This document shows positions 54,751-64,000 of a stretch of DNA of 64,000 nt, piece by piece. Where the stretch lies: NCBI GenBank assembly GCA_002104905.1, contig MCFE01000076.1:118643-182642 (forward strand). The letters run 5' to 3'. Each line of letters opens with the position of its first letter. Position 1 is the stretch's first letter. Both the position numbers and the translations under genes were made by a program. Under the pieces are notes generated by a model. The model saw nothing but the letters and a program-made list of their open reading frames with translations, ran no database searches and was not told the origin of the DNA. Source of the DNA: Basidiobolus meristosporus CBS 931.73. Its lineage: Eukaryota; Basidiobolomycota; Basidiobolomycetes; Basidiobolales; Basidiobolaceae.

Positions 54751-55898
54751 GTGACCGTCACTTAAATTGCCTGTGGCCTCTGCTAAGAATAGTACGTTTT
54801 ATGCCTTCCTCCTGCTTTACTTGATCTATATATCAAAGCTTCCAAGTGAAGTAGCTGCCATATTATTAAGGATCTTTCAAACACAATAATATTCCATTGC
54901 ATTCTGATTATTTACAATCCAAGATAATAAATGTTAATGTTAGATCAACAGAATTCATACATTTTCGTATTCCAATGGCTTGATGATAAAAATACCATCG
55001 TTGATGATTCACCCAAAAGAACCCTTCGCCATTATCGTGCCCTGCAGGGAATGAAAATACACTCTAACGATGGCGTGATGGCGTTCATTAGCTTACGGGA
55101 TTAATTGTAATTGAATTCCCCCGGTAATCTGTTCAGCTAACTGTCCAACTTGAACTGAGCATTCAACAGCTTGTGAGCTTGGACAGTATTCGCCCAGAGT
55201 TCTGTGAAATCTATGCTTACCTAATACTAACCCCGGAGCTGCTGTATATACGTGATTTGCAGTTAGGAAAATATTTATCGTGGAAGACAGCTGACAGGAG
55301 AATAGGCCTAGTACGGTAACCAACGTGATAGACAATGCTGTAGAAGTTTCAATTTATCGCCTAGAACCATAGAGCAAGTTACCATCAATAGGAAGGGCCA
55401 GCCTGTGAGAAATCATCCCTTCCCAGATTGACATCTATTTATTTACTATATGGTTGTTTGCCACCATGTACATGTCTTAAAGATAATTGATATTTCTGCG
55501 CTTCCCAACGAGGATTGTTGTCAAAATATTCCTATTCTGTCAACCTTACAAAACTAGGTCTGCTATATTGGACATTGGCACTGATTATTGTGAAACTGAT
55601 AGCCATAGAGCCAATAAACATGGGTACAGCAACCTTAAATACAAGTCACAGACCCGGCGAGTTTTTAATAGAAAAATTACAACCATTGAAGTAATTCATG
55701 GCTAATCTTAGGATATATGCGAATTTGGGTTATTCATAGGGCCATTCCTGATGACAACCATCGATGCTGTGATTAAAAACAAACAGCTTCTTGGGTCATG
55801 AGTATTCGTGATAGTAGAGAAATATAATCAAGGTGCTTGGACCGACTGCCACTATAAATTCACCATGGTATGCGTGGCCAAAGGTAGTTCTAACCAAA
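54751..55898. other. Intergenic, no gene seen
   Basis: About 1.15 kb, A/T-rich; no supported exon. It includes the LPMO promoter. A CTATAAATT at about 55853 lies about 45 bp before the LPMO start and may be its TATA box. Confidence 0.5.
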
Positions 55899-56822
55899 AT
55901 GATACTCTGTGATTTCATACAAGTAGTTCTTTGCCTGCTTTGTTTCCGGACGTTGGCCGTTGCTCATATGGAAATGGTTCAGCCACCACCGCGCCATTCA
56001 CGCTATAATCCTACATGGTCAGCAGAGCCGGATTATAATATGGTGAGCCCGTTGAGTGTCTATCCCTGTAAAGGATATGGAAAAGGGGGAGTTGTTCAGA
56101 CCGTAAAAGCAGGCGACTCAGTTCAGGTGCAAATTAGTGGTAGTGCTCCTCATGGTGGAGGGCATTGCCAATTTGCTCTCTCATACGATGAGGGCAAGAC
56201 CTTTGCTGTATTAGAAACAATTTACAGCGATTGTCTTTTTCCGAGCACCAATTATTCCGTGGGTATCCCGGTTTCTGCTGGTTCCAGCAAAAACGCCATC
56301 TTTGCCTGGGCATGGATTAACAAAATCGGTAATCGCGAATATTACATGAACTGCGCGGACTTGGAGATTCAGGGAACCGATAATGGCCATGTTGTAGGAC
56401 CAAAGTTGCTAGTAGCAAACCTTCCAGGATACCCTACCATACCAGAGTTTCTTGGCGACAAGTCCTATGATGGTAGAGATTTGCTAGAAGCTCGCCCAAT
56501 CATCACTATTCGTCCAATGAACGATGTGCCTACATCTAACTTAAATACCACATCAGCATCCACACCTGCGAATACACCGCCCACGTCTAGCACATCGTCA
56601 ATCAGTTTCCCGACCTCGACTACAAGCAAGATAAGCACGACCACAACTTCACCAATATCAAAAAATAGACGTTGCGAAGGCTCCTTAGCATGGAGTGCCA
56701 TAGTTGCATATAGTGGCTCCCGGAAGGTTACTTATGAGGGGCATCTATGGCAAGCCAAATGGTGGAATCAAAATGAGTCACCAAAAGAGAGTGGCGTATG
56801 GATTGACTTAGGCTCTTGCTAG
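55899..56822 (+). CDS. AA11-like lytic polysaccharide monooxygenase with chitin-binding C-terminus
   Basis: A single exon of 307 aa. The signal peptide (residues 1-22, ending LAVA) leads to a mature N-terminal His in AHMEMVQPPPRHSRYNP; in LPMOs this His forms the copper histidine brace. The second brace His is probably in GSAPHGGGHCQFALSYDEGKTF. Further AA11-type blocks are VSPLSVYPCKGYG and WAWINKIGNREYYMNCADLEI. A Ser/Thr-rich linker (about 215-260) is followed by a CBM5/12-type module (AYSGSRKVTYEGHLWQAKWWNQNESP, conserved Trp pair). Such enzymes oxidatively cut chitin outside the cell, in cell-wall remodelling or on insect and fungal substrates. ATG 55899 was preferred because it puts the signal peptide at the start; a non-ATG frame continues upstream. 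Confidence 0.88.
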   Translation: MILCDFIQVVLCLLCFRTLAVAHMEMVQPPPRHSRYNPTWSAEPDYNMVSPLSVYPCKGYGKGGVVQTVKAGDSVQVQISGSAPHGGGHCQFALSYDEGKTFAVLETIYSDCLFPSTNYSVGIPVSAGSSKNAIFAWAWINKIGNREYYMNCADLEIQGTDNGHVVGPKLLVANLPGYPTIPEFLGDKSYDGRDLLEARPIITIRPMNDVPTSNLNTTSASTPANTPPTSSTSSISFPTSTTSKISTTTTSPISKNRRCEGSLAWSAIVAYSGSRKVTYEGHLWQAKWWNQNESPKESGVWIDLGSC

Positions 56823-57280
56823 GTTTCTTGTTAGTTCATGTTATTTTTTAATAAAGCAAAACCACAATACTTCATTGTTAGTTTAAAGCAAAAATGAGGG
56901 GAATTATACTGCCATGGAGGTGCATATGAGCCAAAGGCACAACATGGAACACTCATTTGTGTTATAAGTTATCCATTTGCACCCAAATATTTGCATTGAA
57001 TGATATATCTTCAGTTTTTCCATCAATTCTTGTAATTTGCACAAATGCTATAGGATTTCTTCTATGCTAAGTGCATTAATCTTGTGCAAGCTGGATGGCA
57101 CAAATTTTTTAAAGCTTAGCTTATTATGCAGAATGCTTCTCTCCATTGAATTTGTATATAATACCAAATTATATGTTTGCTATTGGGCATTATTTTAGTC
57201 TCAAGTAGGCTAATTATTTAACAAAGGGCCTGATCTCTTAGGGTGTAGATTTTATAGTAAGATTTCAAAAAGGTTGGAGG
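56823..57280. other. A/T-rich boundary between chromosome and telomere-associated array
   Basis: No gene. AATAAAG at about 56851 likely serves the LPMO. Composition becomes strongly A/T-rich, and the first telomere-like GGGTTAGGGGGGG starts at about 57279, marking the proximal border of the retroelement array. Confidence 0.6.
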
Positions 57281-58268
57281 GTTAGGGGGGGAGACAGTTA
57301 CCAACTTAGGGGAGGGAAAGTCACCAAGGTAGGTGAAATCCTTATTTGATTTCAGACAAGTCTAACTACAAATAAGGAAGCCAGCTGGGAATAGAAGATT
57401 CCCAAAGTAAACACTAAGATGAATATGAATAAATCTAAGCCAAAGTTAAGGCAGTATACCAGAGTACACTGGAGTTCAGGTTCATGGGGGAGTGAAGTAG
57501 ATAAGCTTGAGAGATGTAATAATCTTTTAAGAAGTGGGTAACAGCAGGTGAAGGGGAGTTTTTGATAAGTGAGGTGAATCTTGAGAGCAGAGATTCCTCT
57601 AATGAGAAGGTCTTGTAAACTGGAGAATCAGGAAACTCTTTAAAGGCATGGTCAGTAGGTTCCCAGTAAAACTGGTCAGAGACATTTTGAGAGAATTGTT
57701 TGGCAATACTTTTGTCAAGTACTACCTCCAGAGTGTGATGGTTGATAAATCTTATGTTAACAATCTTGGATAAGTTGTAGCCTTGTTGCTTGAGATACAT
57801 CCTATGCTCAGATATGGGAATAAACTCCACATTTGCAAAGTAGCAGACAGCCCAGTCAGTAGCAGGAGGCAAATCAGAGGTGGCAGGAAGCTTTCTTTTA
57901 GTCTTGGGAGGGGCAGCAGGATGTCTTGAGGAAGCAGGATTAGACTTTTTGACAGCTTCAGAATAGGAAGAGTGAGCAGAAGCAGATGATTCTTGGGGAG
58001 TCTTGTTGGCAGGAAGAGTTGGCATAGGGACAATTGATTCTTGCAGATCAGAGAAGGCAGAAAACAGCTTTTGAACTTGTTTCTTGAGTAGAGCATTTTC
58101 AGCTTCAACAAGTGCAAGCCTTTCCTCAAGGAAAGAAATCTCTAGGGAATGGAGTGAAGGCATAAGAAACAAGAAGAAGAGGGTTGGATAGGGTGGGTGG
58201 GTGGGAAAGTTTGCAGGGAGAAGAGAAGGAAGGAATGAATATTCCAGAAGTCAGAATTTATAGATGGG
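57281..58268 (-). mobile_element. Unit A: short non-autonomous retroelement carrying only an ORF1-like gene
   Basis: The left border is TTAGGGGGGG followed by the tail GAGACAGTTACCAAC, the same tail type as in units B and E. A second tail-like stretch (GAAAGTCACCAAGGTAGGTGAAATC, 57315-57345) resembles the SINE tail of units C and D. The right border is TAGGGTTAGGG at 58270-58280. The sense strand is minus, so the element's 3' end is proximal. It holds one intact ORF (57435-58163) and no reverse transcriptase. At about 1 kb it looks like an ORF1-only derivative, parallel to mammalian HAL1. Whether the 5' end is complete is not known. Confidence 0.65.
57435..58163 (-). CDS. ORF1-like protein of unit A (coiled coil plus RNA-binding-like domain)
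   Basis: An intact frame of 242 aa from ATG 58163. Residues 5-40 form a coiled coil (LEERLALVEAENALLKKQV). A Pro/Ser/Ala-rich linker follows, then a C-terminal domain beginning ATDWAVCYFANVEFIPISEHR and LSKIVNIRFINHHTLEVVLDKSIA. The same layout, with weak similarity (ASTWTVVYLKQVPWTPISNIR; LSRIVNLAWRKGKILEVILDQNIA), is found in ORF1 of unit B, so the two are homologous but diverged. The N-terminal zinc-ribbon of the unit B protein is missing. A role as nucleic-acid-binding partner in retrotransposition is inferred. No ORF2 follows it. Confidence 0.7.
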   Translation of the reverse strand: MPSLHSLEISFLEERLALVEAENALLKKQVQKLFSAFSDLQESIVPMPTLPANKTPQESSASAHSSYSEAVKKSNPASSRHPAAPPKTKRKLPATSDLPPATDWAVCYFANVEFIPISEHRMYLKQQGYNLSKIVNIRFINHHTLEVVLDKSIAKQFSQNVSDQFYWEPTDHAFKEFPDSPVYKTFSLEESLLSRFTSLIKNSPSPAVTHFLKDYYISQAYLLHSPMNLNSSVLWYTALTLA

Positions 58269-58338
58269 CTAGGGTTAGGGGGGGAGACAATTACCAACAG
58301 GTGAAATCTTTATTTCAGTTGAAACAAAGAAGCCAGCA

Positions 58339-61107
58339 CTACTGTTGTAGCTTTGATACAAGAGTGTGTAGCTGAGGGGAACTTGTAGGTAAGTTAATAA
58401 GAAGTGATGATAGTTCTTGAGTGCTCAAGACACTGTTCAGTGGGAAGGGGGGTAGCAAGAGAGGTAAGAATGACTTGTGAACAACATTAATGAGGGGAAT
58501 GTGATAAGGATTGATATTCATCATAAAGGGAGTGTGCTGCTGCAGATATTGCTGCCAAAGGTCTGTCAAGTACTTCAGGTAGGCCAGCTTGGGTTTTTCT
58601 GACTGCAGAATAAATTCTGCAAACTTCTTGACTTCAGGATCTCCAAGTATAGTTCTCCAGCAGGAGCCAGGTGTTGTGTGGTGTGTTCTCTTCCAGGCCT
58701 TAATCAGTGGGTTGTTGCAGTGGTGAAGTCTGAGATATAATCTGGTTCTAAGGTAGAGAAGTCTGATCTTATAGGGCATAAACCCAAAAGCACCAAGAAT
58801 AGCATGTCTGTAGGGGCATTCAGGCAAATGAGGCACCAAGGAGGTAATGCACCATACTGCAAACTTGTCAAGCTTAGTGCAGTCTCTAGAAGTAAGAGAG
58901 AGAAGTGGTAAGCCAAATTCCAGTACAGGGAAGACAAACTGCTTGAGTAGAAGAAGGCAGCTGGGAGCTGAAGTTGTAGGAGGAGTAACAGCCAGTAGCT
59001 TGTGGAGTGCCTGTCTTGCCAGGATAATTCTCTTCTTCAGGTGTGCTCCAGAGTCTAGTCCAGTAGGAAGGAAAGGAAAGCCAAGATATGTAGCAGAAAC
59101 CTGAGCAGGTAGAGTGGAGTTCTCTAAGGTGATGGGAGAGCCCAAAGGTACTGTCTTTGCAATGGAAAGCTGGAGATTATTCTTCTGCAGATACTGGTGG
59201 ATGGTCTGGGAGTCTTGTTGCACATTGGAGGAGGATATTCTGATGTCATCAGCAAAGAGAGTAACCAGGCAGTCAGCTGAGAGTCATGGGAAATCATTCA
59301 GGAAGATGGCAAACAGTATAGGACCAAGCACAGAGCCTTGAACCACTCCATTAGGAACTGAGAACACAGCTGATTGCTCACTTGGGTGCAGAATTCTTGC
59401 TTGTGGATCCAGAAACAGGGACCTGACAAGGAGGGTGAGAGAGGTACTGGAGAAGCATTGCAACTTGGACCAAAGCAGATTTCTGTCAACTGAATCAAAG
59501 GCCTTAGTAATATCAAACAGAACTGAGGGATACTTACACTGGAGAGAGTGATCTTGGCTAAGTATGACTGCATATTCCAAGGAGAGGCCAGGAACAAAGC
59601 CAAACTGTGCAGGATGAAACTTGAGGGAGTCAGAGTAGAGCTCCTGAGCAAGCAGAAGCTCAAACACCTTTCTGCAGGTGGGCAGCAGAGATATTGGCCT
59701 GTAGGAGCTAGGATCCAGGTGCTTTCTGTTACCCTTGTACAGTGGCAGAACATTTGCAATGGACCATTCCTCAGGAGTAGAAAGCTGGGCTGAGCATTGC
59801 TGAAACAGTGGAAGCAGAAGTGCAGACATGGCCTTGGTACTAGTCTTCAGAAGCTCATAGGAGATTGTGTCCACACCTGGAGCAGTAGAGTTGGGAAGCC
59901 TCTTGAGCACATTATGGATTCTCCTTTGATCAAGTGCAAGTGGGATGGGCAGAGTCTTGAAGTCAGGATGAAAGCCAGGAGTTGAGTACTGCTTTGTAGA
60001 GAAGAAGATGTTAGCCAGCTGTTCTGTTGAAGGTAACTTCCTGGAAGAGGGCCTCATTGCCCTGTAGAGTCTTGATACTGTTCTTGTTATAGAGTTGGAA
60101 GATTGCAGAGGCAAGGAACTCATAATATGATCCCAGAGCTGAGTATGCAGAGTGTGGTGAATTGCCTTGGAGTGGTGTATTGCTGTCAGGAGGAGTTTCT
60201 CTGTTTTTGGGTTAGGGAAACTCAGGTAGCTTTGTTGCAGGGCTGAAACAATGGATTCCCATTTTCTTGAGGTAACAGCAGTAGTCTTGCATGGCAGTGA
60301 GAGGGAGGCAGACACCAGAATCAGATGCTTCACAAAGAGCCAGGCATAGTTGAGATCATCTGGCAGAGAAAGTAGCAAACTGGCAAGCTTCAAGTAGTTC
60401 CCAAAGTCTTTCTTCTGATTCTTGGTAGCTTTGTGGGTGAGCACAGTAAGTTTTGGCAGCTTCTTCTTCACAACTGGTTGCATAGAAAGGGACCAGGCTG
60501 GGTGGTCAGAGGCTCTCAAGGATCCTAGCTCAGCTCCAGAGAATTGCTTAACTTCATCCACAAAGTAGAGGGCAGCAGCAGAAGGGCAGATCCAGTCAAC
60601 ACATCTTTTCTCAGATTGAGCACCTAGTGCTAGCAGATGGCTTTCTCTCAGGAAGTTCAGTAGGAATGTAGACCTTGGCTTCATTCTTGCAGTCAGAGTA
60701 GTCTTTTTCTCAGGATGGGGAATGTTGAGATCTCCAAGCAAGATAATAGGTGTTGATATAGATTGCTGGTATTGCTGAACTTTCTGGCATATAACTTGCA
60801 CTTCCTGAAGGGCAAGACTTGGAGGCAGATAGCAGAGCACCAGACTGATAGTTGGCAACTGGAGAGCAGCACAGTAAGGGGAGTAAAGAGGAACACAGAG
60901 CTGAGGAGTATTGATGGTAGAAGAGATGAAGCAGATAGAGGAGGTATTCTTTGTTCTAGGAGTAGAAAAGCAATATAGATTAGTCAAAAGTATAGAGGGT
61001 AGCTGAACATCAATCAAACACAGGAGGGAAAATCTTGAAAGAAGTCTCTCTAGAGTTGGTCTTGATGGCTGTATGCTGTTGCAGTTAAGCAACAGAACTT
61101 CAGGTAG
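58339..61107 (-). CDS. ORF2 of unit B: APE-type endonuclease and reverse transcriptase, interrupted by one in-frame TGA
   Basis: In frame with ORF1 after its UGA; 922 codons with one internal TGA (59286-59284). No ATG near the beginning. The endonuclease domain starts VLLLNCNSIQPSRPTLERLL; its later motifs are present (LLGDLNIPH, RASDHPAWS), but the usual catalytic QET position reads CLIDVQL. Reverse-transcriptase blocks follow: NSTAPGVDTISYELL, SYRPISLLPTCRKVFE, LFDITKAFDSVDR (first catalytic Asp), GVVQGSVLGPILF, and FADD (catalytic Asp pair) just after the internal TGA. The C-terminal 250 residues have no clear RNase H. A CGA-to-TGA transition would explain the internal stop, making this copy inactive unless read through. 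The true stop is at 58339. Confidence 0.8.
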
Positions 61108-61110
61108 TCA
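61105..61110 (-). promoter_or_regulatory. Candidate stop-codon readthrough site UGA CUA between ORF1 and ORF2
   Basis: The minus strand reads TGACTA: the ORF1 stop TGA is followed at once by CTA, and the frame stays open for about 600 codons into endonuclease and reverse transcriptase. UGA CUA is the best-established readthrough context in animals and fungi. ORF2 has no nearby ATG of its own. Confidence 0.6.
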
Positions 61111-62616
61111 GGCAGAGGTTGTAGCTTCTTCAGAGGCAGCATTAACTATGTGACCTGCAGAGTCCCAGAGCTCTTCAAATGGTGCATCACTTAAGTCAGC
61201 AAGGAGGGAAATGGCATGGTTCTTGAGGAAGTATGCCACATCATAGGAGGGGGCTTGTCTCTTGATGGCAGCAAAGAAAGACAGAATGGCAACATGGGCT
61301 GGAGGCTTGTTGAACAGTAGAGAGTCAGAGGATTCAGATTCTTCAGGCACTATCTTGAAGTCAGTTTTCAGCCAGTTAAGGTTCTTCTCCACAAAGGCAA
61401 CAAATGGGTCAGCAATGTTTTGGTCTAGGATAACCTCCAGAATCTTCCCTTTTCTCCAGGCCAGGTTGACAATTCTTGAGAGCTGAATATTGCATGCCTT
61501 GAGTGCTTTCCTGATGTTGGAAATGGGAGTCCAGGGAACTTGCTTCAAGTACACCACAGTCCAGGTAGAAGCTGGTGGTAGGTTTGCTGGGGGCTTGTAA
61601 GTCCTTCTGTGTGGCAATGGAGCTGCAGTAGTCAGATTGGAGTCCACATTCTCAGTAGAGGGTTTTCTTGATGTGTCTTGCTGAATGGTACTGGAGCTGG
61701 ATGTGTTGATAATTCTTGCTAGAACCTTGCCTGCATAAGTCTGAGGTATAGCTGAGGTGACTGTAGAGGTGGTGGCAGCTGGTGCAGGTGGAGAGGCAGA
61801 AACTGAAGCAGGAACTGAGGTCACCTGGGAGAAGGCAGTAGAAGCAGGTTTTCTGGGAGGAACAGAGTTCACTATCCAGTTGTTCTGTAAAACACTGGAG
61901 TAGCTTTTCTGTGGAACAGGATCTTGCTCTTGAACAGGAACAGAAGCAGCAGGCTGGGGCTGAGCAGTAGTGGTAAGGCAGTGGCACTCCAAGGAAGCTT
62001 TTTGCAAGGCATCTCTGGCAGTTTTCAGGGCAGTATTGGCTTCATTCTTGAGCTTCTTGCATTGGGCATCCAGTCTCTTGTTTTCAATAGCCAGGGCAGT
62101 ATTGGCAGCCTCTAAATCAGCAATTCTCTTCTCAATTGCAAGGAATCTCTGAAGAAATGCATCAGTAGAAGTGCTGGCATCTGGGAGAGCAGTGGCAGGA
62201 ATAGAGTCCATTGACAGTGGGCTTCTTGGAGGCAAGGAAAGTGGACTGGCAGATTCAGGCACAAAAGGAGATATCCTGGCAGGAGGAGAAGGAGTATCCA
62301 AGGCAGTAACAGAGGCAATTCTTGTTGGTGAAGCAGCAGCAGGGGAGGCAAGCCTGTTCAGAAACTGGGCAGGAGAGAGTGCTTGAGGAGAGGGAGTCTT
62401 CAGCTTGCCAAGCATGTCTTCCATCAGAGTGATACCAATATTCCTGGTGCATTTGCAGAGAAAAGTAAGCTTCCTGAGTCTGCCAGCTCTTCCATTCCTT
62501 CTGATAGTTCCTTTGTTTCCACAGTTGGGGCAAGAAATCTTCTTGATAGACTTGTCAAAGCAATCAAGAACCTTCCTTTCAGGTGTAGTGGGCTCCTGTT
62601 GAGGTTTTGGTGGCAT
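61108..62616 (-). CDS. ORF1 protein of unit B with N-terminal zinc ribbon
   Basis: An intact frame of 502 aa from ATG 62616. Residues 29-56 hold a Cys4 ribbon: C29, C32, C54 and C56 (SCPNCGNKG ... TFLCKC) with basic residues between, like the zinc ribbons of transposases and not the CCHC knuckles usual in LINE ORF1. A Ser/Pro/Ala-rich region follows, then a coiled coil (about 155-205, KRIADLEAANTALAIENKRL), a low-complexity stretch, and a C-terminal domain (about 345-490) with ASTWTVVYLKQVPWTPIS and GKILEVILDQNI. It ends in UGA followed by CUA, and the same frame continues directly into ORF2. Likely role: RNA packaging and telomere targeting (inference). Confidence 0.8.
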   Translation of the reverse strand: MPPKPQQEPTTPERKVLDCFDKSIKKISCPNCGNKGTIRRNGRAGRLRKLTFLCKCTRNIGITLMEDMLGKLKTPSPQALSPAQFLNRLASPAAASPTRIASVTALDTPSPPARISPFVPESASPLSLPPRSPLSMDSIPATALPDASTSTDAFLQRFLAIEKRIADLEAANTALAIENKRLDAQCKKLKNEANTALKTARDALQKASLECHCLTTTAQPQPAASVPVQEQDPVPQKSYSSVLQNNWIVNSVPPRKPASTAFSQVTSVPASVSASPPAPAATTSTVTSAIPQTYAGKVLARIINTSSSSTIQQDTSRKPSTENVDSNLTTAAPLPHRRTYKPPANLPPASTWTVVYLKQVPWTPISNIRKALKACNIQLSRIVNLAWRKGKILEVILDQNIADPFVAFVEKNLNWLKTDFKIVPEESESSDSLLFNKPPAHVAILSFFAAIKRQAPSYDVAYFLKNHAISLLADLSDAPFEELWDSAGHIVNAASEEATTSA

Positions 62617-62685
62617 ATCCAGAGTTTCAGCTTCAAATTTCAATTTTTGAGATTTTTGGGTGATTTTTGATGGGCGGGATCAAAA

Positions 62686-62697
62686 TTAGGGTTAGGG
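62686..62697 (+). repeat. Two interstitial telomere repeats between unit B and the next fragment
   Basis: TTAGGGTTAGGG directly joined to the 5' end of unit B, in the same orientation as the terminal telomere. It marks an old chromosome end on which later sequence was added. Confidence 0.85.
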
Positions 62698-62846
62698 TTG
62701 CGCGCTGTGACTGCTTTTTACGATCGCAAGGTCAGAACCTAGGAAAAAATAAAAATAGTTAGTAAAGGTGATTTAATGGATGGATGGATGGATTCGGAGT
62801 CAGATTCAATCAAAAAATCAAATCGTTGACTAATTTAAAGAGGGTT
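62698..62846. other. Unassigned fragment with an ATGG microsatellite
   Basis: About 150 bp between interstitial telomere repeats and unit C. It contains four ATGG units (about 62776-62792) and no gene. It lacks the G-rich tail that begins the other units, so it may be an unrelated subtelomeric piece or the 5' remainder of another element. Confidence 0.5.
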
Positions 62847-62931
62847 AGGGGGGGAGGAAAGTCACCAAGTGGTGAAATCTTTATTTACTTATGACAAGTA
62901 TCTAAAGAAGCCAAGCTAATCTGATGTTATT

Positions 62932-63050
62932 CCTAGAAAGCTAGGTCTGAGAGATATATTCCTGGTAAGCCAGGTCTGAGAGTTGAGAAGCTGAGTGGTA
63001 CTATATTTCCTAGTTAGCTAGGTCTGAGAGTGGTTTCCTGGAAAGCCAGG
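62932..63050. repeat. Row of four 14-nt hairpins in unit C
   Basis: Four palindromes with 5-bp stems and 4-nt loops: CCTAGAAAGCTAGG (62932-62945), CCTGGTAAGCCAGG (62961-62974), CCTAGTTAGCTAGG (63009-63022) and CCTGGAAAGCCAGG (63037-63050). Each is followed by YCTGAGAR. Stem position 4 alternates between A-T and G-C with the partner changing to match. The same four occur in unit D at 63459, 63488, 63536 and 63564. Confidence 0.9.
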
Positions 63051-63304
63051 CCTGAGAAGTGAGAATCTGAATATATCTGAGCTAAGTTATACTGGTTTGC
63101 GGTAGCTGAATTGTGGCCGGAATGGCCAGTAGACTGGGGGAGCTGAGATGTATTTCTGGGCAATCACTGGCCAAATTTACTAGGCAAATCTGGCCAAGTA
63201 GCATTTCAAGGATTTCAGCCAATCAGAGCCTTTACTTTGCCCGATGGTTGATCAAGCCATCTCCCAATGAGCACACATCAATTTATTGATCAAATTTTGT
63301 TGGA

Positions 63305-63372
63305 TCCAGGATTTGAACCCACAACCATGGGTATGGAAGGGTTAGGGATAACCACAAGGCTAAGTGTTCTTG
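63305..63372 (-). promoter_or_regulatory. tRNA-like head with RNA polymerase III A and B boxes
   Basis: On the minus strand, TAGCCTTGTGG (63362-63352) fits the A box with one mismatch, and GGTTCAAATCC (63319-63309) is a perfect B box, 32 nt apart. The acceptor stem is not formed and the T stem is imperfect, so this is a tRNA-derived promoter, not a working tRNA gene. Confidence 0.65.
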
Positions 63373-63737
63373 GTTAGGGGGAGGAAAGTCACCAAGTGGT
63401 GAAATCTTTATTTACTTATGACAAGTATCTAAAGAAGCCAAGTTAATCCGAAGTTATTCCTAGAAAGCTAGGTCTGAGAGATATCTTCCTGGTAAGCCAG
63501 GTCTGAGAGTTGAGAGGCTGAGTGGTACTATATTTCCTAGTTAGCTAGGTCTGAGAGAGGTTTCCTGGAAAGCCAGGCCTGAGAAGTAAGAATCTGAATA
63601 TATCTGAGCTAAGTTATACTGGTTTGCGGTAGCTGAATTATGGCCGGAATGGCCAGTAGACTGGGGGAACTGAGAGGAATTTCTGGGCGATCACTGGCCA
63701 AATTTACTAGGCAAATCTGGCCAATTAGCATTTCAAG
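63373..63737 (-). mobile_element. Unit D: 5'-truncated copy of the SINE-like element
   Basis: About 360 bp, the proximal two thirds of unit C with scattered point differences, mostly transitions. It begins TTAGGGGGAGGAAAGTCACC next to the 5' end of unit C with only one telomere unit between, and stops at TTTCAAG (63737), where unit C continues into the tRNA-like head. Loss of the 5' part on the distal side fits incomplete reverse transcription. All four hairpins are retained. Confidence 0.85.
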
Positions 63738-63829
63738 GGTTAGGGGGGGAGACAGTCACCAACAGGTGAAATCTTTATTTCAGTTGAAACAAAGAAGCCA
63801 GCGCTACTGTTGTAGCTTTGATACAAGAG
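63738..63829 (-). mobile_element. Unit E: about 90-bp, 5'-truncated LINE 3' end next to the telomere
   Basis: Nearly identical to 58272-58362 of unit B, with three differences, all transitions. It begins GGGTTAGGGGGGGAGACAG and ends at ATACAAGAG, where the terminal TTAGGG tract starts without any spacer. The truncation leaves only the 3' UTR and the last few codons of ORF2. Confidence 0.9.
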
Positions 63830-64000
63830 TTAGGGTTAGGGTTAGGGTAGGGTTAGGGTTAGGGTTAGGGTTAGGGTTAGGGTTAGGGTTAGGGTTAGGG
63901 TTAGGGTTAGGGTTAGGGTTAGGGTTAGGGTTAGGGTTAGGGTTAGGGTTAGGGTTAGGGTTAGGGTTAGGGTTAGGGTTAGGTTAGGGTTAGGGTTAGG
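63829..64000 (+). repeat. Telomere, (TTAGGG)n at the chromosome end
   Basis: About 28 head-to-tail TTAGGG units to the window's last base, G-rich strand 5'-3' toward the right. Two imperfect units are seen: a TAGGG near 63847 and a TTAGG near 63979. Length and orientation mark a true right-hand chromosome end. Confidence 0.98.

Follow-up and report, generated by a model that had tools for sequence, protein, structure and literature searches.

How a stack of retroelements, all in one orientation, came to lie directly beneath telomeric repeats is the question raised by the right end of a contig of the fungus Basidiobolus meristosporus CBS 931.73. The stretch analysed, called here the window, comprises 64,000 nucleotides (nt; C1046:118643-182642), and its base 64000 is the contig end; the genome searched comprises 89.0 Mb in 1311 contigs, cited by their C numbers. 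The array in the window is real, and the pattern to which it belongs is stronger genome-wide than in the window itself. The common 3' tail of its elements and their almost uniformly oriented stacking under a thin telomere cap suggest that they were copied directly onto chromosome ends. The reading that we favour, and to which we give a little under an even chance, is that a telomere-associated long interspersed nuclear element (LINE), together with two kinds of parasitic partner, a tRNA-type short interspersed nuclear element (SINE) and an element carrying only open reading frame 1 (ORF1), extends chromosome ends that have lost their telomere by means of telomere-complementary RNA tails.

The array consists of six head-to-tail units, all on the minus strand, and a 171-nt TTAGGG tract running to the contig end (63830-64000, plus strand). 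Counted from the gene side, the first unit is a junction TTAGGGGGGG with a 14-nt stub of a LINE-type 3' tail (AGACAGTTACCAAC; 57282-57305, the stub at 57292-57305). It is followed by a TTAGGGG junction and the ORF1-only element, B (57306-58268; tail AGGGAAAGTCACC with a run of four Gs, G4), 5'-truncated near position 955 of a 1018-nt reference. A junction with an 11-nt telomeric stub and G7 (58269-58284) leads to the full-length LINE, LINE A (58285-62843; 4559 nt), whose 3' tail has hairpins and C7TAACCC and whose 5' end, ...AAAGAGG, is joined to GTTAGGGGGGG at 62844-62854. Next comes a full-length SINE of 521 nt (62855-63375; 5' end ...CTTGGTT), joined as CTTGGTT/AGGGGG (63376-63381; the slash marks the join) to a second SINE that is 5'-truncated at about 354-357 of 521 (63382-63738). 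A further GTTAGGGGGGG junction with 3 nt of microhomology to this truncated SINE (63739-63749) precedes the last unit, an 80-nt, 5'-truncated LINE A 3' tail with a two-hairpin 3' end (63750-63829). The original prediction, made from the window sequence, had described the TTAGGG junctions with extra G and the uniform orientation, both of which are present, and five head-to-tail units, of which the arrangement stands and the count becomes six with the 14-nt tail stub that precedes the others; its statement that any truncation is distal (5') applies to B, the second SINE and the last LINE tail, LINE A and the first SINE being full length. Chance is excluded as a source of these repeats, since the window contains 24 copies of TTAGGGTTAGGG where 0.01 would be expected, and the tail pattern GGGTTAGGGGGGGAG, with up to one mismatch, gave 229+26 genomic matches while its reversal gave 3+4. 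One TTAGGGTTAGGG copy (62686-62697, plus strand) had been considered as a junction and was rejected, as it occupies the same place in the 5' untranslated region of LINE A in 10 of 10 rows from 8 contigs; the motif used to search for LINE 5' ends itself contained the first TTAGGG of this copy.

Terminal, oriented addition of elements, with the 3' end proximal as originally claimed, is well supported by the rest of the genome. Among 100 of the 255 tail-pattern matches, 95 could be placed relative to contig ends (5 were dropped), and 93 of these were oriented to the distal contig end at a distance of up to 21 kb (91 of them no more than 12 kb away); where the contig measured at least 50 kb, 77 of 81 lay within 12 kb of the distal end, against a random expectation of 9.2. 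The tail pattern holds a telomere repeat and could therefore favour telomeric copies, so that copies found by element sequence weigh more. Among the best 30 places for each element, all 30 SINE copies lay no more than 7.4 kb from the distal contig end, and 27 of 30 LINE copies no more than 8.9 kb, the exceptions being on C217, C726 and C558. The repeat searches scored the 40 best of 554, 444 and 350 candidates, the last figure being that of a second LINE family, and young copies are thus favoured. In this second family 38 of 40 scored copies were on the plus strand and the 2 on the minus strand lay near their contig starts; the 10 that could be placed against a contig end were all within 7.4 kb of it (distances by hand). 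Telomere repeats, in tracts of about 50-240 nt, terminate 21 of the 30 contig ends reached by these loci.

What lies distal to the elements agrees with growth by stacking. Distal to 136 element 5' ends, a count that omits rows under 88% identity, we found another element in 94 cases, a telomere tract in 20 and something else in 22. By eye, these 22 comprise ten tails of further families or damaged tails, four cases of an LTR-like repeat (resembling a long terminal repeat, LTR), two of another repeat, four splits or monomers, and two that are unexplained (C473, C355). Thus non-element DNA beyond the copies, for which we looked, amounts to 2 unexplained ends of 136, with six more running into other repeats. 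As for copies in internal positions or in opposite orientation, those on C558, C355, C726 and C217 fall outside a simple terminal picture.

The unusual loci deserve description. At C558:89000-99478 an array lies 98 kb from the left contig end, beside an LTR-like repeat (TGTTGTATCC...) that is also found beside truncated elements on C90, C924 and C1001. At C726:57488-66200 left- and right-pointing arrays stand back to back, as a telomere fusion or an assembly chimera would leave them. A 55-nt LINE tail is inverted within a right-pointing array at C355:154742-154797, and at C473:96584, a site 20.8 kb short of the contig end, 60 nt of LINE A tail lead into about two telomere repeats and then into unrecognised DNA, possibly through an internal insertion or a fusion.

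The junctions between elements show how addition may take place. We used 229 of 232 junctions, those with at least 100 nt upstream (3 with short upstream sequence were dropped), and defined stub length as the number of telomeric nt before an element, counting three of the element's Gs. Loci found by GGGTTAGGGGGGGAG must carry G7 and at least 9 telomeric nt, which biases both measures; an unselected set of 105 junctions was therefore kept apart, by subtracting the 80 found by GGGTTAGGGGGGGAG and the 44 that had brought in the repeat-search loci. Stubs of no more than 12 telomeric nt were found at 207 of the 229 junctions and at 99 of the 105 unselected ones. A telomeric G overhang (TTAGGG), which had been proposed to prime first-strand synthesis, is consequently not supported as the usual primer, as non-telomeric DNA lies directly proximal to the stub at those 207 junctions, and the suggested alternation of elements with longer telomerase tracts would fit at most about one tenth of the junctions (22 of 229 exceed 12 nt). 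Among 175 distinct junctions, 44 stubs were of 6 nt or less, 114 of 7-12 and 17 longer, with 76 in the range 7-11 and 5 in the range 13-17; among 76 distinct unselected junctions on truncated elements or other DNA, 35 were of 6 nt or less, 26 of 7-11, 11 of exactly 12, 2 of 13-17 and 2 longer.

These lengths bear on a first alternative: the elements would have entered telomere tracts by ordinary target-primed insertion, the route proposed for MoTeR, FoTeR, TRAS and SART, and the longer interstitial tracts would later have been lost, leaving stubs of only one or two repeats. The insertion within telomeric tracts that is typical of TRAS and SART was not seen at 207 of 229 junctions, where later loss of the tract is possible. 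Loss would give the nearly equal numbers of unselected stubs of up to 6 nt (35 of 76) and of 7-12 nt (37 of 76), and the conserved endonuclease residues described below also suit insertion. On the other hand, a limit in repeat number should allow two repeats and a few nt more, yet only 2 unselected stubs have 13-17 nt against 26 with 7-11 (5 against 76 overall), and most elements have no telomere tract distally. We consider this explanation unlikely.

According to the reading that we prefer, element RNAs would end in a C-run plus UAACCC(UAA), an RNA end that we infer from the genomic copies. A chromosome end that has lost its telomere would offer a 3' end, be it that of unique DNA, of an eroded element or of the previous cDNA, and this would pair by a few bases with an RNA tail bearing one or two C-strand repeats. 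The LINE reverse transcriptase would then extend the paired 3' end into the element, often incompletely, hence the distal 5' truncation, and the new 3' end would either prime the next element or receive a telomerase cap. The GG or GGTT ends of full-length cDNAs are telomere-like and thus suited to either fate. Pairing of this kind agrees with the microhomology at truncated-element junctions, with a mean of 1.91 nt against 0.74 for a null of random cuts (standard deviation 0.13, maximum of 2000 runs 1.21; 67 of 92 junctions scored, 25 with mismatched bases at the break being dropped). In the unselected set the mean was 1.73 against 0.74 (standard deviation 0.19, maximum of 2000 runs 1.67; 30 of 41 scored). 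Full-length ends behave similarly: CTTGGTT/AGGG was found at 25 of 40 junctions after a full-length SINE (16 of 27 unselected), and GG/GTTAGGG with 10 telomeric nt at 3 of 5 after a full-length A and 3 of 3 after a full-length B. Separately, we noted truncations exactly at an internal GGGTTAGGG, at position 1924 of A (C162) and position 483 of the SINE (C670), as if these had served as primers.

The same SINE ends could have arisen by template jumping, in which the reverse transcriptase, having completed one RNA, moves over to the next 3' tail, making multi-element arrays at once wherever it was first primed. Jumping by the R2 reverse transcriptase is known, and the same 4-nt pairing connects 25 of 40 full-length SINE ends to the tail that follows. 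Jumping usually requires the 5' end of the template, yet of 52 LINE A copies lying before a junction 47 are truncated; moreover, neither the terminal location nor the telomere cap is explained by jumping itself. As the origin of the arrays it seems to us quite unlikely, and it is compatible with end extension, the two being non-exclusive. Growth mainly by recombination between ends, whether by break-induced replication or rolling circle, is very improbable and was rejected as the main cause: six junction groups held in common among 181 junctions (two on C324, those of C533 and C751 in tandem, and two common to C227 and C659) speak for it, and the 175 distinct junctions among the 181 speak against it.

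The most serious alternative is that telomerase acts first. A broken or eroded end would be healed by a single template pass (12 nt or less), and the C-run of the element RNA would pair with the new GGG end and be copied, so that nascent rather than mature telomeres are used. Telomerase is probably present in this genome, judging from a TERT RNA-binding domain on C880 (two adjacent matches, one with an internal stop). Where microhomology is absent, the stub begins in phase (TTAGGG or TTAGGGTTAGGG) at 12 of 16 junctions (9 of 11 unselected), and the base preceding in-phase stubs is C in 40 cases, T in 21 and A in 2 (C 20 and T 13 unselected); random cuts of the element references would leave as few as two As among 63 with a probability of about 5e-14. 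All 12 of the blunt in-phase breaks lie at pyrimidine-to-purine steps (null 0.39 each), as do 9 of 9 unselected. By eye, 5 of 21 terminal tracts also start in phase after C (4) or T (1), as the stubs do, the others starting on seeds. In the published account of Magnaporthe, ends are healed on seeds of 1-7 nt or, in five of six exceptions, on C, the seeds having been found in 17 of 23 truncated MoTeR copies (PMC7367193).

What separates telomerase-first healing from copying of the element RNA is the dependence of the stub on the element that follows. Stubs of exactly 12 nt occur at 37 of 150 junctions with A or the SINE and at none of the 23 with B (p=0.005 by Fisher's test and 0.002 by chi-square; 2 junctions whose downstream family was unclear are omitted). 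The difference is weaker among unselected junctions, with 10 of 53 against 0 of 21 (Fisher p=0.053, and p=0.011 by three-class chi-square). Such dependence, although the evidence is modest, would be unexpected of stubs made by telomerase; and terminal tracts reach about 200 nt, so that telomerase is not confined there to one pass. The G-run of B is G4 in 27 of 31 unselected cases. An argument that A always bears G7 was withdrawn, as the 88 of 109 cases overall mostly reflect selection by the search pattern (13 of 32 unselected, range 5-11); the G-run of the SINE is also variable in the unselected set. The argument from a fixed C-run is thus valid for B only, and the variable runs of A and the SINE fit pairing of a C-run with a telomerase-made GGG end. 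Taken together, the variation of stub length with the following element, the fixed G-run of B and a limit set in nt rather than in repeats support copying of the stub from element RNA, and telomerase-first healing appears rather unlikely to us. The element's own RNA tail is our preferred, though unproven, template for the stub. On C1109 the terminal tract reads CACC/TTAGGGGGGG and continues directly into telomere repeats, as if the addition of an element had been broken off just past the C-run.

Several points weigh against extension of telomere-less ends by element RNA tails. The RNA 3' end on which it depends is deduced from sequence; a single telomerase pass would give a similar stub limit, and terminal tracts begin similarly (by eye). 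The C or T before in-phase TTAGGG resembles the telomerase healing reported in Magnaporthe (PMC7367193), and the pyrimidine-to-purine breaks would suit nicking or RNA cleavage equally. For A and the SINE, pairing inside the C-run with slippage is possible. With most of the catalytic residues of its endonuclease conserved in two families, the LINE may nick DNA. The loci on C558, C355, C726, C217 and C473 are not simply explained, assembly error being possible, and the six junction groups held in common indicate that some growth took place by duplication or exchange.

The tails of A, B and the SINE share a plan: an AATAAA-like stretch (AATAAG in the window copy of B), a hairpin of TCACC, loop and GGTGA, pyrimidines, a C-run and TAACCC. 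On folding, the last A tail in the window forms two hairpins with z -4.4; the full-length A gave z -3.4, and B and the SINE about -1.9. The first 45 nt of the SINE match LINE tails at 84-91%, a 3' tail in common with the LINE being what is expected of a SINE partner. Box A- and B-like letters were recognised in the SINE by eye, including the box B-like GGGTTCAAATCC; ARAGORN called no tRNA in it, and neither Rfam nor ARAGORN gave matches over the array. The reading frame of B is about 35% identical to the C-terminal part of LINE A ORF1, and repeats of about 100 nt are present at the 5' end, where A has one or two and B as many as four. A bolder proposal, which we advance only tentatively and consider on the improbable side, is that the element RNAs are mimics of the telomerase template, allowing the LINE reverse transcriptase to heal telomere-less ends directly, and that the 5' ends of the elements evolved to GG or GGTT so that each finished cDNA would prime either the next element or telomerase, giving a self-propagating terminal chain of one autonomous element and two kinds of parasite beside telomerase.

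LINE A has the features of a non-LTR retrotransposon: a reverse transcriptase (Pfam RVT_1, E=1.6e-16), an ORF1, and no flanking LTRs seen in the copies compared. Its ORF1 (61108-62643, minus strand; 511 amino acids) gave only weak coiled-coil-type Pfam matches. ORF2 (58339-61092, minus strand), with one in-frame stop near 59284 in the window copy, encodes the reverse transcriptase and an endonuclease of the apurinic/apyrimidinic (APE) type, assigned on motifs together with Pfam matches that are weak and below the cut-off; in LINE A this domain stands in place of the restriction-like endonuclease characteristic of MoTeR and FoTeR. Both LINE families, which are about 38% identical in ORF2, retain the N, Y, GD.N, D and SDH residues, except in one disrupted copy. 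The ET/ES motif has its Glu in 12 more distant relatives with a readable motif; Asp takes the place of this Glu in the window copy, in the second LINE family and in two relatives of about 60% identity, a change that could conceivably mark weakened nicking. With these motifs kept in both families, the endonuclease is probably used in each. Its loss was rejected in view of the conserved catalytic residues, and a purely endonuclease-free, Athena-like route is accordingly not demonstrated.

As for the rest of the window, the flank proximal to the array (57238-57281, no strand assigned) begins TTAGGGTGTAG and resembles by eye the repeat that precedes arrays on C32, C407 and C428; a repeat starting TTAGGGTGTAGGTGTTATAGTAAGGGC is immediately proximal to several arrays (window 57238-57281; C32, C428, C407). 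A search for an empty site of this flank returned, besides the flank itself, only relatives of 66-85% similarity and no near-identical allele. The last long ORF before the array (55833-56822) encodes a protein with a CBM5/12 carbohydrate-binding module, and the window also encodes a glycogen branching enzyme that is 100% identical to a protein of B. meristosporus CBS 931.73.

A comparison with known systems indicates which features are shared. HeT-A, TART and TAHRE of Drosophila are added head to tail to termini with the 3' end proximal and attach to non-telomeric ends; Drosophila has neither telomerase nor a TTAGGG cap, and HeT-A has no reverse transcriptase. Oriented terminal addition was also found here, with C558, C355, C726, C217 and C473 as exceptions; absence of telomerase was not, and unlike the Drosophila arrays, that of the window is capped by a TTAGGG tract. 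The Athena Penelope-like elements of bdelloid rotifers are telomere-associated, and end-priming with a telomere-complementary tail has been proposed for them; they are endonuclease-deficient and of Penelope type, whereas here a LINE has a conserved endonuclease. TRAS and SART of Bombyx mori have APE-type enzymology. They are, like the present elements, LINEs found at telomeres alongside telomeric repeats, and differ in inserting inside the telomeric repeat in mutually opposite orientations, as against nearly one orientation, mostly outside repeat tracts, in B. meristosporus (PMC10088271). The same source enumerates SART, TRAS, GilM, GilT, Zepp1, MoTeR1, Tx1-1_ACar and Athena as telomeric retrotransposons, its main text not using the word SINE (PMC10088271). 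Within one limited literature collection, we found no work on Basidiobolus telomere retrotransposons or on telomeric SINEs.

A close likeness is to MoTeR1 and MoTeR2 of Magnaporthe (Pyricularia) oryzae, which are fungal, telomere-associated and arranged head to tail with the 5' end toward the chromosome end, and which combine an autonomous element with a non-autonomous partner and truncated copies in the presence of telomerase (PMC7367193). They differ in that MoTeR1 has a putative restriction-like endonuclease rather than an APE-type one and the partner is an internally replaced LINE rather than a tRNA-type SINE (PMC7367193); moreover, their interstitial tracts vary in length between half a repeat and more than 20, with at most two repeats at stable ends (PMC7367193), whereas the stubs described here are mostly of 12 nt or less. 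FoTeR of Fusarium oxysporum is likewise a telomere-confined fungal LINE with upstream tandem repeats; it differs in typically having 3.0-7.0 TAACCC copies on its 3' side and a short telomeric motif on its 5' side, and the available part of its description does not mention a SINE partner (PMC12857005). Telomeric LINEs are therefore already known in fungi, and the present host is a telomerase-bearing fungus far from the known cases, in which 175 distinct junctions from a sampled set of one genome permit a base-by-base study of telomeric LINE priming. If telomere-complementary RNA tails do prime on telomere-less ends, the system would stand as a functioning intermediate between LINE insertion, Drosophila-style telomeres and telomerase, and its SINE and ORF1-only partners would show that this route is open to parasites. 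Compared with the systems above, it is these two partners, the 12-nt limit and the telomere-like 5' ends that look new.

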